Positions 38,648-63,326 of a stretch of 64,000 nt of DNA are shown here, piece by piece. Numbering within the stretch: position 1 is the first letter of the stretch; the number at the start of each line of letters is the position of its first letter. The notes beneath the pieces were generated by a model that was not told the origin of the DNA, searched no databases, and saw nothing but the letters and a program-made list of their open reading frames with translations. The stretch covers positions 1 through 64,000 of the forward strand of contig PTKV01000008.1 in NCBI GenBank assembly GCA_002937895.1. The letters run 5' to 3'. The DNA comes from Alphaproteobacteria bacterium MarineAlpha5_Bin9 (GTDB lineage Bacteria > Pseudomonadota > Alphaproteobacteria > HIMB59 > GCA-002718135). The position numbers and the translations under genes were made by a program.

Positions 38648-39615
38648 TTGACGTTAATTTTTCAGTAAAAAATATTCAAAATATAAAAAAAATGATTTCA
38701 CCATATATATTAAATACACCAATTATACATGATTCAAATAATTCCATTCTTTCTAAAAATAGAAATTTATTCTTTAAATTAGAATTTCTACAAAATGGAG
38801 GTAGTTTTAAATCTAGAGGAGCGATTAATAATGTTTTAAGTTTAAATAAAAAAGAAAAAAAAAATGGAGTTTTAGCTGTAAGTGCTGGTAATCATGCCAT
38901 ATCTGTAGCTTATGCATCAAATATATTGAAAGTAAAAAACAAAGTTATAATGCTTAAATCATCAAATGAATATCGAAGAAAAACTGTAAGACAATTAGGA
39001 AGTAAATTAATTATTGCGAAAAATGCTAAAATAGCTTTTGATAAAGCAAATATAATTGCAAAAAAAGAAAATAGATTTTTAATTCACCCCTTTGACGGAG
39101 TAAAAACTTTACAAGGTTCAGCTACTTTGGGTCTGGAAATTTGTCAAAGATTTAATAAATTAGATAATTTAATTATTTCTGTAGGAGGAGGAGGGTTGAT
39201 AGCAGGAACATCAATTATGATAAAACAAAAATTTCCAAATTGTAAAATTATTGGCGTAGAACCAAAAGAAGCATCAGGTTTGACTCAAAGCTTAAAAGCT
39301 GGGAGGGCTCTAAATTCTGTAAAAGTAAATACTATTGCTGATAGTTTAGGTCCTCCGTATCATATGAAATATAGTTTTGATATATGTAAAAATCATATTG
39401 ACGAAATGATTTTAATATCAGATCATCAGATGAAAAGAGCTATGAAGTTCGTTTATAATAATTATAAATTTATCTTAGAACCTGCAGCTTGTGCAGGAAT
39501 AGCTGCTTTACAAGGTCCTTTATCAAAAAGATTATTAAATGAAACGACTCTAGTTTTGCTTTGTGGATCAAATATAGATCTAAATACTTGGTTTAAATTA
39601 GCTTATGATAAATAA
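38644..39615 (+). CDS. PLP-dependent threonine/serine dehydratase-like enzyme
   Basis: LEFLQNGGSFKSRGAINNV (PLP Lys), VSAGNHAISVAYAS, SVGGGGLIAG, LCGSNID. Confidence 0.85.
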   Translation: MIDVNFSVKNIQNIKKMISPYILNTPIIHDSNNSILSKNRNLFFKLEFLQNGGSFKSRGAINNVLSLNKKEKKNGVLAVSAGNHAISVAYASNILKVKNKVIMLKSSNEYRRKTVRQLGSKLIIAKNAKIAFDKANIIAKKENRFLIHPFDGVKTLQGSATLGLEICQRFNKLDNLIISVGGGGLIAGTSIMIKQKFPNCKIIGVEPKEASGLTQSLKAGRALNSVKVNTIADSLGPPYHMKYSFDICKNHIDEMILISDHQMKRAMKFVYNNYKFILEPAACAGIAALQGPLSKRLLNETTLVLLCGSNIDLNTWFKLAYDK

Positions 39616-41703: not shown

Positions 41704-43107
41704 TTATATACCTAATTCTAAATATGATTTTTCAATCTTCTTTAACGCAACTGAATACGCAGATACTCTATAGTTTGTTAATTTATATTTATTTTTTAAT
41801 TCTAAAATTTCTTGAAGAGCCATTCTCATTGTATCCTCTAAACCTGAAGCAATTATATCTTCTTCATTCGCACCGTATACGAGTTGATCAACTAAATTTT
41901 TAGGCAATTTTTTTGATGAGATTTTGTTTATAGCTTCAACTATTGATTGACCTCTATGTTCTTCGTATCTTTTATTTAGTCTCCCCATTCTAATATGACT
42001 GATATTTCTTATCCATTCAAAATATGAAACAGCCACACCTCCTGCATTAGCATAAATATCAGGAATTATAGTAATTTTCTTATCATTTAGAATTTTGTTT
42101 GCATTATAAGTAATAGGACCATTTGCAGCTTCACAAATAAGTTTAGCATTAACTTTATTTACATTACTAGTATTTATTACATTTTCTAAAGCTGCTGGTA
42201 TTAAAATATCACATGGAATTTCAATAATTTTGGAAGAGTCTTTAATTGTTTTTGCATTTTCAAAATTTAATATTGAATTGTTTTCATTTTTATATTTTAT
42301 TAATTTGTGTATATTTATTCCTTTTTCGTTTATTATTAATCCATTTTTTTCACCAATTGCTACAATTCTTGCCCCATCATCATATAAGGCTTTAGATGTA
42401 TTTAGACCAACATTACCAAAACCTTGAATAACAATTTTTTGATTATTTAAATTTCCCTTTAAATTAGTTTTATAAATTTCTTTTTTATGTCTGAAAAATT
42501 CTTTTAGTGCTTGATGAACTCCTCTACCTGTGGCTTCTAATCTTCCTTTTATCCCACCATGTTGAATTGGCTTTCCTGTAACACATGCCATATGATTTAT
42601 GTCATCAGGTTTTAAACTTTTATATGCATCTAAAATCCAACCCATTTCTCTTTGAGATGTTCCCATATCTGGGGCAGGGACATCTCTAGAAGGACTTAAA
42701 AAACCTCTCCTTATTAATTCTCTAGCAAATTTTTTAGTAATTTTTTCAAGAGATTCTTCATCGTATTTCTTAGGATTTATAAGCAAACCTCCTTTAGCTC
42801 CTCCAAATGGAATATCAGCAACAGCACATTTAAAAGTCATTAGTGATGCAAGAGCCTCAACCTCTTCCTGATTAACATTAATAGAATATCTTAATCCTCC
42901 TTTAGCTGGGAGTCTGTGAGTGCTATGAACAGCTCGCCATCCATAAAAAATCTCAGTTTTACCTTTTATTCTTACAGGAAATTTTACTTGTAGAACTGAT
43001 CTGCATGTTTTCAAAATTTTAGAGATATTTTGATCAATTTTTACAGCTTCAATAGCTTCATCAATCATTTTATCAACATTTGCAAGAAAAGTTGGTCTAT
43101 TTTCCAT
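41704..43107 (-). CDS. gdhA: Glutamate dehydrogenase family protein
   Basis: LPAKGGLRYS, MTFKCAVADIPFGGAKGGL, VPAPDMGTSQREMGWI, VIQGFGNVGLNT. Confidence 0.9.
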   Translation of the reverse strand: MENRPTFLANVDKMIDEAIEAVKIDQNISKILKTCRSVLQVKFPVRIKGKTEIFYGWRAVHSTHRLPAKGGLRYSINVNQEEVEALASLMTFKCAVADIPFGGAKGGLLINPKKYDEESLEKITKKFARELIRRGFLSPSRDVPAPDMGTSQREMGWILDAYKSLKPDDINHMACVTGKPIQHGGIKGRLEATGRGVHQALKEFFRHKKEIYKTNLKGNLNNQKIVIQGFGNVGLNTSKALYDDGARIVAIGEKNGLIINEKGINIHKLIKYKNENNSILNFENAKTIKDSSKIIEIPCDILIPAALENVINTSNVNKVNAKLICEAANGPITYNANKILNDKKITIIPDIYANAGGVAVSYFEWIRNISHIRMGRLNKRYEEHRGQSIVEAINKISSKKLPKNLVDQLVYGANEEDIIASGLEDTMRMALQEILELKNKYKLTNYRVSAYSVALKKIEKSYLELGI

Positions 43108-45202: not shown

Positions 45203-46057
45203 ATGGGTTTAGTTACTGATTTATTTTTACCATTAGCCTTAGCTTTTATTATGTTTTCATTAGGAAGTGGTCTAACACTGAATGATTTTTCTCAAATTAT
45301 TAAGAAACCAAAGGACTTCTTAATTGGTTTCATTTCTCAAATTGTTATTTTACCAATTGTTGGACTAATTCTTGTTTCTATTTGGCCTTTATCTCCTGAA
45401 TTAGCAATAGGAGTTATGCTAATAGCTGTTGCTCCAGGAGGTGCCACATCAAATATTATAACTTCATTTGCTAAAGGTGATGTAGCTTTGTCTATATCTC
45501 TCACTGCTGTAATAAGTCTTCTATGTGTTATTACTATACCTTTCACACTTCTTACATCTATTAGTTTTGCTATTGGATCCTCAGTTAACTTTGAATTTTC
45601 TATATTTGATATAGCACTACAAATGTTTCTAATAGTGACTATTCCTGTGATAATAGGGATGATATTTAAAAAATTTTTCAATAATTTAGCAATTTCTTTT
45701 GAACAAACATCAAAAAAAATTTCTGCAATTTTATTTTCATTAGTTTTATTAGGAGCTATTATTTCTGAAAGGGAAAATATATTATCTTATTTTTATCAAG
45801 CAGGCCTTATAACGCTTTTATTGAATTTAATAATGATGTTTATTGCATATTATTTAGGAAAAACTTTTGCTTCAAATAAAAAGCAAGGGATAGCTATTAC
45901 TGTTGAATGTGGTTTACAAAATGGTACTTTGGCTATTGTTGTGGCGACATCTATTTTTGGAGGAGGGGTTTTTTTAATTCCTGCTGCTACTTATAGTTTA
46001 ATTATGTTCTTTAGCGCTTTGATATTTGTTTATTTATCTAGACGTGAAATAATATAA
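45203..46057 (+). CDS. Bile acid:sodium symporter family transporter
   Basis: About 9-10 TM; LAIGVMLIAVAPGGATSNIITSFAKGDVALSISLTA, VECGLQNGTLAIVVA. Confidence 0.88.
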   Translation: MGLVTDLFLPLALAFIMFSLGSGLTLNDFSQIIKKPKDFLIGFISQIVILPIVGLILVSIWPLSPELAIGVMLIAVAPGGATSNIITSFAKGDVALSISLTAVISLLCVITIPFTLLTSISFAIGSSVNFEFSIFDIALQMFLIVTIPVIIGMIFKKFFNNLAISFEQTSKKISAILFSLVLLGAIISERENILSYFYQAGLITLLLNLIMMFIAYYLGKTFASNKKQGIAITVECGLQNGTLAIVVATSIFGGGVFLIPAATYSLIMFFSALIFVYLSRREII

Positions 46058-46104: not shown

Positions 46105-47166
46105 TTATATTTTTTTTGCAGCACTAGTTTCTTTAATATTGCTTAATTTTGTATATCTATCAATCATTTGAGTAGTTTTATGGCCGCTTTGTGCCATAAT
46201 TTCATGAACAGGTACTCCATTAATTCTTGCTTGAGTAATTGCTCCTATTCTTAAACTATGTCCTGAAATCATTTCACAATTAGTTATTCCTGCATTTTTA
46301 GCTCTTTTTTTTAGTATTAATACAAAATGACTGTCTGTTAGACTTACCTTAGAAAAATCTTTTTTATTTAATGTTGTTTTTTCAATTTTTTTTGATTTGT
46401 TTATTTTATAAAACAATCTTCCACTTTTAATATTTGAAATTTCAAGCCATTTATTCAATGCTGTGACTGGACAGCATAAATCTCCTGTTTTGGGAATAGA
46501 TATTACTCTACCTAGACCTGTCTGATCTGTTTTACTATATCTTATATTTATCTCTATGCTAGATTTAGAAAAAGATAGATCTTCAAAATTCATTAAAATG
46601 ATTTCTGATCTTCTGCAAAAACTATAAAAACCTAGTAAAATTAATGCTTTATCTCTTATACCTTGTAGATTATCTTTTTCGTTTGAAATATTGTTAATAA
46701 TTTTAACTAAATCCTCTTTTAATATTTCTCTAGCTTGTCCATTATTCTTATTCTTGTCATTTCTTACAATTGCACTAATAGTTTCAAATATTTCAGGATT
46801 TCTTCTGTCAAACTGATATCCACTAAGTCTGTATTTATAACTTATAGATGCCAAAATTCTTTGAATTGTTGAAGCTTTATAAGGTGATTTAGAGTAGGGG
46901 TTATTATTTAAATTAGTTGTATTTTTTTTATTAGTTTTCCCTTTATATTTTAATGCATCTGAATCTTGATGTAACCAATCTAAATAATTGGATGTTAAAG
47001 CATATGCGCTATTTAAATCATCTACATCTACTGGATGACAATTATATTGTTTTTTACAGTATTCTATAAATTTAAGCCAATCTCCTTCATATTTCTTTTG
47101 TGTATTTGATGATTTTGACTTTTCTCTAAGTTTTAAAACTCTTTCATTTTGTATTATTTTAACCAT
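46105..47166 (-). CDS. Tyrosine recombinase / phage-integrase-family protein
   Basis: SAM-like N-terminal core-binding region and catalytic RRSEI, SGHSLRIGAI, SGHKTTQMIDRY; likely start Met at 47166 (VKIIQNERV) rather than the ORF start 47220. Confidence 0.88.
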   Translation of the reverse strand: MVKIIQNERVLKLREKSKSSNTQKKYEGDWLKFIEYCKKQYNCHPVDVDDLNSAYALTSNYLDWLHQDSDALKYKGKTNKKNTTNLNNNPYSKSPYKASTIQRILASISYKYRLSGYQFDRRNPEIFETISAIVRNDKNKNNGQAREILKEDLVKIINNISNEKDNLQGIRDKALILLGFYSFCRRSEIILMNFEDLSFSKSSIEINIRYSKTDQTGLGRVISIPKTGDLCCPVTALNKWLEISNIKSGRLFYKINKSKKIEKTTLNKKDFSKVSLTDSHFVLILKKRAKNAGITNCEMISGHSLRIGAITQARINGVPVHEIMAQSGHKTTQMIDRYTKLSNIKETSAAKKI

Positions 47167-47177
47167 ACATATATTTA

Positions 47178-47205
47178 AGATACGATAACTGTAATTATCG
47201 TATGT
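47178..47205. other. dif-like recombination core site
   Basis: agATACGATAA-CTGTAA-TTATCGTATgt: perfect 9-bp inverted arms with a 6-nt spacer, 12 bp upstream of the recombinase start. Confidence 0.6.
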
Positions 47206-47349
47206 TATATAATATGTCAATAATATAATAATTATATATAATATCTCTATTTATCATATATATATATTACATATATAATGCTTAATATTAATTTATTATC
47301 AATATATTGAATTTCACGTGGAAATATATACTATATATTGTATTTGCTT

Positions 47350-48084
47350 ATGAATATAGAAAATCTACCTAAAATAAAGAAAAACAGTAATGTTTTTGTT
47401 TTAACAGGAGCCGGAATTTCTAAGGAATCTGGAATAGAAACATTTAGAGATAATAAAAAGGGTTTGTGGAATAAACATAAAATTGAGGATGTTGCAACAT
47501 TAGAAGGTTTTATCAAAAACCCAGAAAAAGTTTATGAATTTTATAATTTAAGACGTAAAGAGCTAAATTCACATGATATAAAACCAAATAAAGCTCATAT
47601 TATATTAAAATATTTGGAAAAATACTTAAATATCAATATAATAACACAAAATATTGATAATTTACATGAAAAAGCTGGTAGTAATAATATTTATCATATG
47701 CATGGAGAGTTAAACAAAGTTAAGTGTTTAAATAAAAATCACATTTTTGAATGGACATCAGATTTAACAAATGAACATAAGTGCAATATTTGTGGTTCCG
47801 CCATGCGACCTGACATTGTGTGGTTTGGTGAAATTCCATATTTCATTGATCAAATAGAACACTTAACTCAAATTTCAGATATTTTCATATCTATAGGAAC
47901 ATCAGGAGAAGTCTACCCTGCTGCAGGTTTTGTAGATTTATTTAAACGAATGAATAAAATCACAATTGAGTTTAATTTAGAAAAAAATTTAAATAGTCAC
48001 AAATTTGATTTCTCAAACTATGATAAGGCAACAATATCTTTAAATAAGTTCAAAAACTTGTTAACACAACAAATTATTATATAA
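47350..48084 (+). CDS. cobB: Sirtuin NAD-dependent deacylase
   Basis: VLTGAGISKESGIETFRD, ITQNIDNLHEKAGS, HMHGEL, CNICG, RPDIVWFGE. Confidence 0.92.
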   Translation: MNIENLPKIKKNSNVFVLTGAGISKESGIETFRDNKKGLWNKHKIEDVATLEGFIKNPEKVYEFYNLRRKELNSHDIKPNKAHIILKYLEKYLNINIITQNIDNLHEKAGSNNIYHMHGELNKVKCLNKNHIFEWTSDLTNEHKCNICGSAMRPDIVWFGEIPYFIDQIEHLTQISDIFISIGTSGEVYPAAGFVDLFKRMNKITIEFNLEKNLNSHKFDFSNYDKATISLNKFKNLLTQQIII

Positions 48085-49111: not shown

Positions 49112-50248
49112 TTGACATATTCAAATAAAAATTTTGATGTAATAATCATTGGATCCGGAATAGCTGGAGTGTCTATTGGCTCTGAATTATCTAATAATTT
49201 AAAAATTTGTATATTAGAGAAAGAGAATTATCTTTCATATCATTCTACTGGAAGATCTTTTGCTTTTTATTTAGAGAGTTATGGTAATAAAATTATAAGA
49301 CAATTAACCTCTGCTTCTAAGGATTTTTTTGTAAATAATTCAAATAATGAAAATCCAATCTTAAAAAAAAGAGGTGTTTTACATATAGGAAGCAAAGATC
49401 AAGTAAGCTCTATAGATGCACTTTATTCAGATTTAATACAGATTAACGATAATTTTAAATTATTAGATAGAAATGAAACTATTAAATTGCTACCTTGTTT
49501 AAATTCTGAATCTATACACAATTCTATCTACGATGAAAATGCAAGTGATATAGATGTTAATAATCTTTATAATGTTTTTTTAAATGAATGTAAGAAGAAC
49601 AATTCTGTAATTGAAAAAAATGTTTTAATTCAAAATTGCTTAAAAAAAGGAAATCATTGGATTTTAAATACAAATAAAGGTGAATATAATTGTAATATAA
49701 TTGTTAATGCTGCTGGTGCTTGGGCAGGAGAATTTGGAATTAAAACAGGTTCTCAAAATATTAATTTAATTCCAAAAAAAAGAACTATATTTGGTTTTAA
49801 ACCTCTAAATGTAGAATTAAATAAAAACTGGCCATTAGCTGTTGATGTAGAAGAAAATTTTTATTTTAAGATTGAGAATGACATAGTGCTAGCATCTCCT
49901 GCAGATGAGAACCCCTGTAAACCACATGATGCTCAACCTGATGAATATGATATTGCTGTTGGAGCAGAAAGAATAAAAAAATCTACATTATTTCAATTCA
50001 ATTCTATAAAAAACAAATGGGCTGGATTAAGATCTTTTGTTAAAGATAAAAATCCAGTAATAGGTTTCGATAATCAAATAGAAAATTTTTTTTGGTTTGC
50101 TGGACAAGGAGGTTATGGAATACAAATATCCCCTACTTTAGCTAAAATTGCCAATAATATTATTTTAAAAAAAGATAATAATTTTTATGAAAATAAATTA
50201 GGCATGAATTTTAAATCATTTGATGTTAAAAGGTTTATAGATGAATAA
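49112..50248 (+). CDS. FAD-dependent amino-acid oxidase/dehydrogenase (DAO family)
   Basis: VIIIGSGIAGVSIGSEL, HSTGRSFAFY, VNAAGAWAG, WFAGQGGYGIQ; TTG-type start assumed by the ORF track. Confidence 0.87.
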   Translation: MTYSNKNFDVIIIGSGIAGVSIGSELSNNLKICILEKENYLSYHSTGRSFAFYLESYGNKIIRQLTSASKDFFVNNSNNENPILKKRGVLHIGSKDQVSSIDALYSDLIQINDNFKLLDRNETIKLLPCLNSESIHNSIYDENASDIDVNNLYNVFLNECKKNNSVIEKNVLIQNCLKKGNHWILNTNKGEYNCNIIVNAAGAWAGEFGIKTGSQNINLIPKKRTIFGFKPLNVELNKNWPLAVDVEENFYFKIENDIVLASPADENPCKPHDAQPDEYDIAVGAERIKKSTLFQFNSIKNKWAGLRSFVKDKNPVIGFDNQIENFFWFAGQGGYGIQISPTLAKIANNIILKKDNNFYENKLGMNFKSFDVKRFIDE

Positions 50249-56617: not shown

Positions 56618-57676
56618 CTAAACTAAAACTAAATTATTTATATCAAAACCAAATTTTACAGTTTCACCTTCTTTAAATATTTTTGATTCTGGTAAATTTG
56701 AAAACTCAGATATGAATTTGAATTCATTTGAATTAATTATATATCTAATTATAGCTCCTTGGTAAGAGATAATATCTATAGTTCCCTCTAATATACAAAT
56801 ATCTTTATCTGTATTGGGATTAAATATAATATGTTCTGGTCTTAATACAGCTGATGAAAATTCCTGATTAATTTTTTCATTAATTTTTAATTGAAAATTT
56901 TGATTCAAAAAAGAAACATTGATATAATCACCCGAGTATGATTTTTTTTCTAAAGGTAAAAAATTTGAAATTCCAATAAAATCTGCAACAAATTTATTTG
57001 CTGGTTTTTCATAAATTTCAGTTGGAGTTCCTATCTGAGATATTTTTCCTTTATCCATAATAGCAATTCTATCTGACATTGTAAGGGCTTCTGATTGATC
57101 ATGTGTAACATATACAGTTGTAATCTTTAATTTTCTTTGAAGTTCTTTTATCCAGATTTTCATCTCTTCTCTTAGTTTTTTATCTAACGCACTTAAAGGT
57201 TCATCAAGTAAAAGAATTTGAGGTTCAGTTACTAAGACTCTAGCCAAAGCAACTCTTTGTTGCTCCCCTCCTGAAAGTTCTCTTTGGTATCTATTTTCAA
57301 ATCCTAACAAGTTAACTTGTTCTAATGATTTTTTTACCTTATCAATAATTTCATTTTTATTAATATTTCTCATTTTTAATCCAAATGCGATATTATCAAA
57401 TACATTCATATGAGGAAAAATTGCATAATTTTGAAAGACAAAACCTATATTTCTAGTTTCCGGTGCCTGATAAGTTATGTCATTATCACCAATTAATATT
57501 TTTCCACCTGACGGCATAACAAATCCTGCAATCATTCTTAAAGTTGTTGATTTGCCGCATCCAGACGGTCCTAAAACAGAAAAAAATTCTCCAGAATTAA
57601 TATTAAAACTTACATCATTTACAGCAAGCAGTTCATCAAATTTTTTTGAAAGATTATTTAATTTTAAATCGAACAT
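56618..57676 (-). CDS. PotA-like ABC transporter ATP-binding protein
   Basis: GPSGCGKSTTLRMIAGF, LSGGEQQRVALARVL, LLLDEPLSALD; start trimmed from 57706 to Met at 57676 because the upstream codons lie in a hairpin. Confidence 0.92.
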   Translation of the reverse strand: MFDLKLNNLSKKFDELLAVNDVSFNINSGEFFSVLGPSGCGKSTTLRMIAGFVMPSGGKILIGDNDITYQAPETRNIGFVFQNYAIFPHMNVFDNIAFGLKMRNINKNEIIDKVKKSLEQVNLLGFENRYQRELSGGEQQRVALARVLVTEPQILLLDEPLSALDKKLREEMKIWIKELQRKLKITTVYVTHDQSEALTMSDRIAIMDKGKISQIGTPTEIYEKPANKFVADFIGISNFLPLEKKSYSGDYINVSFLNQNFQLKINEKINQEFSSAVLRPEHIIFNPNTDKDICILEGTIDIISYQGAIIRYIINSNEFKFISEFSNLPESKIFKEGETVKFGFDINNLVLV

Positions 57677-61784: not shown

Positions 61785-63326
61785 TTAAAATATATCCCCT
61801 ACTGCTTTTACATGTAATCTAACGGCACCTGATGGAAGATAGCTTAACGGAATTTCTTCTAATTCAATAATTGAAATAGTTTCTTTTATAGCTCCAGCTT
61901 GAAGAGCCCTATTGATAGCATCATTTTTAGCATTTTCTATTGATTTATCTCTTCCAATTTCATTATATGAATAAATTTTATCTATTTCACCTCCTGCTTG
62001 AGCCAAAGAAGCACCAATAGCATTAGCAACATCAGAATGTTTTGGGATAATAACTTCTTCCGCTCCTTCTAAATTTCCTTCTACAAGAATACTACCACCT
62101 CCTACTAAAATAACAGGTACTAAATCTTTATTCAACTTTACTCTATCTATACCATCCTCTATCATTTTTTTTATTTTAATTATTGTATTATCAATTAAAT
62201 TTTTATCCAAATTACTAACATTATCTTTATTTCCAAAATTTGATAAACCTTTCGCAATAGCAATATCTGAAGCTGTAAGTTTATTTCCACCAAAAATTAA
62301 ACTTTCTGAAGTTAATTTAAAACCAACAGACTCTGGACCAACTTCTATATTATTATTCACATTTGTTACTAAACTACCCCCACCTAACCCAATAGATATT
62401 AAATCAGGCATTCTAAAATTTGTTCTAACTCCTCCTATATCAACAGGAATTGCTGATTCTCTAGGAAAGCCTTCTTTGATTACACCGAAATCAGTAGTTG
62501 TCCCTCCAATATCTACTACAATAGCGTTTTTATGTCCTGATAAAAATGCAGCACCTCTCATACTATTAGTTGGTCCAGAAGCAAAAGTTAAAACAGGATA
62601 ATTTTTAACTATGTTTGCAGACATTAATGTTCCATCATTTTGACTAATATAAAATGGACATTTAATATTTAATTTTATTAATGCTTCATTAAATGAAGTG
62701 ATAACTTTATCTGCAAGATTTCCTAAAGAAGAATTCATAATTGTAGCATTTTCTCTTTCAATAAAACCTACTCTTCCAATTCTATGTGACATTGTAATTA
62801 TAGATTCAGGGTTATATTTTTTTATGATATCAGCAGTAAGTATTTCTTGTTTTTCATTAATAGGTGAAAAAACACATGATATTGAAATATATTTTAATTT
62901 TTTTTGAGAAATTTCTTTAGCTACTTTTTCAATTTCAGTTTCAGACCAATCCCCAAGATATCTTCCGTCAAATTCATAACCTCCAGGAACAATCCAAAAA
63001 TTATTTCCTAAAATATTTCTTAAATTATCAGAAAAATCAATACAAGGAGGAACACTAATAGTTGCTGGATAGGCTAATCTTACAATTGCAACTTCTTCTA
63101 GTCTTTTATTTTCTACAAATGCATTTGTAAATTGAGTTGTCCCAATCATTACAGATTCTAAATCATTTGGAGATATTTTTGTTTTTTCAAGTATGTCACT
63201 TACAGCATTAATTATACCTAAACCAGGTTCCTCTGTGGTAGCAGACTTAACTCCATGAAGAACTTCTCTACCGTTCATTATAACAGCATCAGTATTAGTC
63301 CCACCAACGTCAACACCTATTCTCAT
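61785..63326 (-). CDS. Hydantoinase/oxoprolinase A-type subunit, copy 2
   Basis: IGVDVGGTNTDAVIM, MIGTTQFTNAFVENKRL, FASGPTNSMRGAAFL; same length (513 aa) as copy 1. Confidence 0.9.
   Translation of the reverse strand: MRIGVDVGGTNTDAVIMNGREVLHGVKSATTEEPGLGIINAVSDILEKTKISPNDLESVMIGTTQFTNAFVENKRLEEVAIVRLAYPATISVPPCIDFSDNLRNILGNNFWIVPGGYEFDGRYLGDWSETEIEKVAKEISQKKLKYISISCVFSPINEKQEILTADIIKKYNPESIITMSHRIGRVGFIERENATIMNSSLGNLADKVITSFNEALIKLNIKCPFYISQNDGTLMSANIVKNYPVLTFASGPTNSMRGAAFLSGHKNAIVVDIGGTTTDFGVIKEGFPRESAIPVDIGGVRTNFRMPDLISIGLGGGSLVTNVNNNIEVGPESVGFKLTSESLIFGGNKLTASDIAIAKGLSNFGNKDNVSNLDKNLIDNTIIKIKKMIEDGIDRVKLNKDLVPVILVGGGSILVEGNLEGAEEVIIPKHSDVANAIGASLAQAGGEIDKIYSYNEIGRDKSIENAKNDAINRALQAGAIKETISIIELEEIPLSYLPSGAVRLHVKAVGDIF

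Follow-up and report, generated by a model that had tools for sequence, protein, structure and literature searches.

Single-recombinase systems are known from several groups of bacteria as alternatives to the canonical Xer system, in which two enzymes, XerC and XerD, resolve joined sister chromosomes when the cell divides. In streptococci and lactococci (XerS/difSL) and in epsilonproteobacteria (XerH/difH), the gene of the one recombinase and its target site lie next to each other in the terminus (PMC5357621, PMC2731167). XerL/dif of the Legionellales also consists of a single divergent recombinase and a site with uninterrupted inverted arms, in a group thought to be without dif/Xer (PMC9765430). 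The same economy of one enzyme and symmetric arms characterizes Cre/loxP of phage P1 and Dre/rox of phage D6, and a rox half-site is annotated near dre. Pelagibacter (P. ubique) has been reported without dif/Xer, a situation read as a loss by genome streamlining, and the same paper found no evidence of loxP/Cre-like replacements in dif/Xer-deficient proteobacteria (PMC2731167).

The locus described here was identified in a 64-kb window, which is the whole stretch of DNA analysed, from an alphaproteobacterial genome of 1.23 Mb (93% complete). A tiny-genome ocean bacterium devoid of XerC and XerD appears to use one Cre-like enzyme and an adjoining site at the terminus. The two elements of the module are the following.

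46105–47166, minus strand: single Cre-like tyrosine recombinase of 353 aa (PF00589, 3.8e-15), proposed as the sole Xer enzyme
47180–47203, plus strand: predicted dif-like recombination site, ATACGATAA-CTGTAA-TTATCGTAT, with a conserved core at 47182–47201; no recombination assay

We are highly confident that this palindrome is the dif site of the chromosome and that the adjoining gene encodes its only Xer-type recombinase, in the absence of data on recombination, binding or phenotype.

The original prediction of a 28-mer with a dif-like 6-nt spacer and 9 bp of perfect repeat per arm was borne out by re-reading positions 47178–47205 (AGATACGATAACTGTAATTATCGTATGT), where the perfect arms occupy 47180–47188 and 47195–47203 and the spacer CTGTAA 47189–47194. 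Such a palindrome is in itself unremarkable: five perfect 9-6-9 palindromes occur in the AT-rich DNA of the window, so that a single genome proves nothing and conservation becomes decisive. The 20-mer ACGATAACTGTAATTATCGT has one match in the window at up to three mismatches, where shuffles predict none, and one match in the whole genome at up to two mismatches. We surveyed 150 genomes of the order, 98 from the family of the window, which we infer to be the AEGEAN-169/HIMB59 group (PMC10308909), and 52 from its sister family. Of the 98 family genomes, 70 carry a single copy of the 20-mer (with one mismatch in one of the 70), and none of the 52 sister-family genomes carries it. It adjoins the recombinase in every locus read, upstream of each orthologue, in hosts named as uncultured Alphaproteobacteria single cells and MarineAlpha5 bins. 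All 71 named loci with a site carry the spacer CTGTAA, and two further named loci end at a contig edge inside or near the start of the recombinase gene. The site was neither duplicated in any family genome nor variable beside orthologues; lack of conservation there, one of the refuting results named beforehand, was not seen.

The position of the site was assessed by GC skew and by the polarity of FtsK-orienting (KOPS) motifs. In the window, cumulative GC skew climbs to 40–57 kb and then drops, while the coding strand shifts from plus to minus, and the strand and skew argument initially made for converging replication forks was thus right. The distance between the cumulative skew maximum and the site is 6–22 kb in all 11 contigs (1.89 Mb), on chromosomes of 1.2–1.6 Mb; in G007, over a 400-kb stretch, the distance is 8.5 kb. 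A skew switch far from the site, which would have told against the proposal, was not encountered. The motifs of the window point towards the site from both sides.

39188–39195, plus strand: KOPS-like GAGGAGGG, toward the site, from the motif polarity analysis
42672–42679, plus strand: KOPS in the exact E. coli form GGGCAGGG, toward the site, from the same analysis
45960–45967, plus strand: KOPS-like GAGGAGGG, toward the site, from the same analysis
46892–46899, plus strand: KOPS-like GAGTAGGG, toward the site, within the recombinase gene; the final motif of this polarity ahead of the reversal
50131–50137, minus strand: KOPS-like AGTAGGG, back toward the site from the right, from the same analysis
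57266–57272, minus strand: KOPS-like AGGAGGG, back toward the site, from the same analysis
61797–61803, minus strand: KOPS-like AGTAGGG, back toward the site, from the same analysis

In the contigs analysed, the E. coli KOPS GGGNAGGG, which was not selected from these data, occurs 31 times toward the site and never away from it. The other KOPS variants were in part selected from these very contigs; among them, GAGTAGGG gives 59:0. For GRGNAGGG, the interval that best marks the reversal spans the site in every one of the 11 contigs, and the reversal takes place within 525 bp on both sides of the site in nine of them, the nearest motifs being 297–304 bp away on each side in seven contigs and at about 300 and 525 bp in two more. 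Relatives have a copy equivalent to that at 46892, some 300 bp away from the site. As a control, all 56 words with the composition of GGGNAGGG were counted together, giving 1248:237 toward versus away; G-rich skew accounts for part of the polarity, not for its completeness or its sharp switch. Motifs selected on four training contigs, each divided at its GC-skew maximum, gave a reversal interval around the site in six of seven test contigs and off the site in the seventh. A search of 18 family genomes found FtsK with its FtsK_gamma domain in 17 of them.

The immediate surroundings of the site comprise a possible promoter, a conserved neighbour and a parS-like motif.

47192–47220, minus strand: promoter-like -35 TGTCAA (47215–47220; TTGACA on the minus strand), 17-bp gap and -10 TAATTA (47192–47197); read from the sequence, inference only
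47312–47323, no strand assigned: parS-like TTTCACGTGGAA, one of three such motifs in the genome, role unknown
47350–48084, plus strand: sirtuin-like gene, divergent, a conserved neighbour that also adjoins the module in relatives, G003 among them

The promoter-like -10 overlaps the dif-like site in the window, and in relatives TTGACT-17-TAATTA likewise overlaps it, with a conserved flank. Owing to this overlap, part of the site conservation could be regulatory, and the recombinase is probably the repressor of its own gene, an autoregulation that is only inferred. This arrangement is also what supports the strongest rival explanation, that the palindrome is solely an operator, bound by the recombinase or a separate repressor, with dimer resolution taking place elsewhere. 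Nothing requires an operator to lie at the peak of GC skew or where KOPS polarity reverses, and no other tyrosine recombinase exists in the genome to act elsewhere. The asymmetric 6-bp spacer is moreover invariant in sequence, and in the window genome, unlike every other locus read, the whole of it is inverted with respect to the gene. By synteny, the gene, its neighbour and the replichores keep their mutual arrangement there, so that only the site was flipped; the -35 and -10 elements, with their 17-bp spacing, can still be read in the flipped site. Either orientation of a single-copy recombination site should work. The operator-only reading, which leaves the KOPS reversal unexplained, was rejected and retains very little credibility.

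The parS-like motif is a separate observation. In 60 of 71 loci, TTNCACGTGNAA is found about 100 bp from dif at a near-constant distance (-104 to -106). Among 13 family genomes searched, 12 have exactly three parS-like motifs, of which two lie at mnmE/mnmG close to the origin and the third near dif; the other two motifs of the window genome are also at mnmE/mnmG. As an essential part of the module the motif was rejected, being missing from 11 of the 71 loci.

The recombinase starts at 47166 with a conserved ATG-GTT-AAA, which leaves 11 bp to the 28-mer; the frame could be extended to a TTG start at 47220, but orthologues align from the ATG. Tyrosine recombinases are expected to carry the catalytic set R-K-HxxR-H-Y, and R185, K212, H303, R306, H329 and Y338 are invariant in 16 orthologues, which share 58–69% identity within the family. 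By sequence, the closest solved relatives are Cre structures, and XerH is not among the sequence matches. A Foldseek search with an AlphaFold model of moderate quality (pLDDT 71) placed Cre first (E 6e-10), ahead of XerA (3e-6) and XerH (7e-6). On sequence and predicted fold, the enzyme thus qualifies as Cre-like, with Cre and Dre as its nearest characterized relatives. The site, with arms of 7–9 bp and a 6-bp spacer, does not have the architecture of Cre/loxP (13-bp arms, 8-bp spacer).

The enzyme had been described as a lone tyrosine recombinase, correctly, as the window genome has no second PF00589 protein within the limits of its completeness. Most genomes contain exactly one such protein; 18 of the 98 family genomes have no match, as expected of incomplete genomes, which is not proven. 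Canonical Xer relies on two enzymes and some single-cell genomes carry extra PF00589 proteins, so a second, unrecognized partner recombinase might be required. Against the count of one in most genomes and arms identical over 7–9 bp, such a partner is highly improbable.

The recombinase scores far below the cut-offs of the XerC, XerD and XerS models, reaching with its orthologues only 23–42 bits against the XerD model. No XerC/XerD-type gene was found in the window's family, and hence a canonical xerC/xerD pair elsewhere, named beforehand among the refuting results, did not materialize. The sister family has two matches to the XerD model, of about 329 and 286 aa and 190–226 bits. No canonical dif lies within three mismatches in the window genome, and searches for the canonical proteobacterial dif in both families of the order returned weak matches only. 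The sister family (f2; G024 and others) possesses XerC/XerD-like genes, yet no canonical dif was found in it within three mismatches of the consensus. Membership of XerC/XerD was rejected for the window recombinase, as neither a pair of XerC- and XerD-subfamily paralogues nor a canonical dif was found.

A class-wide search led to a second family (f99) with genomes of 1.0–1.6 Mb, several of them complete single chromosomes. Rhodopsin was found in 10 of 10 members tested, and the family is probably SAR11 (Pelagibacteraceae), a name that is inferred. PF00589 is present in 71 of 78 genomes, nearly always as one homologue of about 304–336 aa, and GATAA-N7-TTATC palindromes occur at all 39 loci read. 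Arm sequences vary from type to type, but complementarity is mostly preserved (pair 7: 10 AT, 7 TA). The skew maximum of G558 lies 1.8 kb from its site. The reading of a complete probable-SAR11 genome covered only 400 kb. In six complete genomes, for five of which chromosome length is known only to 0.1 Mb, the recombinase gene is located at 0.46–0.50 of the chromosome from the parS beside mnmG/rsmG/parA. This family therefore shares the layout of a single recombinase and an adjoining site, opposite parS and at the skew peak. If the inferred SAR11 name holds, these data are at odds with the published view of P. ubique as lacking a dif/Xer system (PMC2731167). A single clade of the AEGEAN-169 and SAR11 recombinases has support 69/86 and is neither shown nor rejected, so that one capture or two by these groups is unresolved.

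The module may also be exchanged as a whole. In G003, from another genus of the window's family (L020, G003:C42), a different recombinase occupies the same locus beside the sirtuin gene, with up to 46% identity to f99 and 34–39% to its own family. Its palindrome differs as well, ATATTAGGTTTGATAT-gggagag-ATATCGAACCTAATAT (16-7-16, one mismatch). Enzyme and site have changed as a pair, the pattern to be anticipated for an enzyme that acts on its own target. Relatives of the recombinase are abundant on plasmids, where they are annotated as site-specific integrases, and long perfect GATAA-N7-TTATC palindromes lie upstream of those of Protochlamydia and Hymenobacter plasmids (L362, upstream of 1390; L367, upstream of 1387). 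This suggests, without proving it, a plasmid resolution module as the source of the chromosomal system; descent from a plasmid Cre/lox-type module is inferred only. We lean, by a small measure, towards a scenario in which Cre/lox-type modules resembling plasmid ones replaced XerCD/dif for chromosomal dimer resolution in AEGEAN-169 and SAR11, while FtsK/KOPS stayed, recombinase and site were swapped in place as one module in G003, and a parS-like motif lies about 100 bp from dif in many AEGEAN-169 genomes. The plasmid relatives and the palindromes preceding two of their genes are also all that speaks for an integrase of a resident mobile element acting at an attachment or resolution site, an alternative raised in the original prediction that can be practically discarded, as the site is never present twice per genome, no copy was found in viral contigs, and the gene is vertically conserved in several genera with conserved neighbours and a fixed terminus position.

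The self-contained, single-recombinase dimer resolution module first proposed is, by comparison, strongly supported by the invariant site, its terminus position, the KOPS reversal and the lack of XerC/XerD. When a chromosome dimer forms, FtsK would load on KOPS and pump DNA toward the convergence point, bringing both copies of the site together. Each site would be bound by two recombinase molecules, one on each of its near-identical arms, and a tetramer of one single protein would assemble from the two occupied sites. Tyr338 would then cut and exchange strands across the asymmetric 6-bp spacer, resolving the dimer; with symmetric arms, the spacer alone would set the direction. Recombination itself and its dependence on FtsK remain inferences. 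The single enzyme and its catalytic residues, the invariant single-copy site, its terminus position, KOPS convergence, the retention of FtsK gamma and the loss of XerC/XerD-type genes are computed results.

If this holds true, abundant ocean bacteria do possess dimer resolution, of a Cre-like type, and the reading of a loss by streamlining would be wrong. It would also mean that dimer resolution can change its recombinase and still retain FtsK and KOPS, and raises the question of whether FtsK gamma can activate a Cre-type enzyme. The site further provides an exact terminus marker for these genomes.

The locus fits the functional class of single-recombinase dif/Xer systems in its one recombinase without a XerC/XerD partner, its conserved single-copy palindrome whose spacer falls in the range of 6–8 bp, its terminus position, and KOPS convergence with FtsK gamma, recombination by the enzyme being inferred. 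We regard the system as a new variant of this class based on a Cre-like enzyme, for which biochemical evidence is missing; our literature searches found no report of a Cre-like single-recombinase system. It resembles XerS/difSL and XerH/difH in its single recombinase and adjacent terminus site, but the arms of the window site are fully symmetric, unlike theirs. Identity with XerS was rejected (NCBIfam NF003462, 16.8 against a cut-off of 267 bits), and XerH structures rank well below Cre in the fold search with the moderate-quality model. With XerL/dif it shares uninterrupted inverted arms and reliance on one divergent recombinase, in a group held to be without dif/Xer; xerL, however, lies more than 400 kb from dif in L. 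pneumophila, whereas gene and site are adjacent here. XerC/XerD/dif offers the same FtsK-KOPS-terminus setting and ATAA-N6-TTAT core, and differs in its two enzymes, its canonical dif and its XerD-type sequence. Cre/loxP and Dre/rox provide the nearest solved structures by both sequence and fold, together with the principle of one enzyme and symmetric arms. Unlike them, the present enzyme, only 26% identical to Dre and with spacers of 6–7 bp against the 8 bp of loxP, is chromosomal and located at the terminus with KOPS and FtsK.
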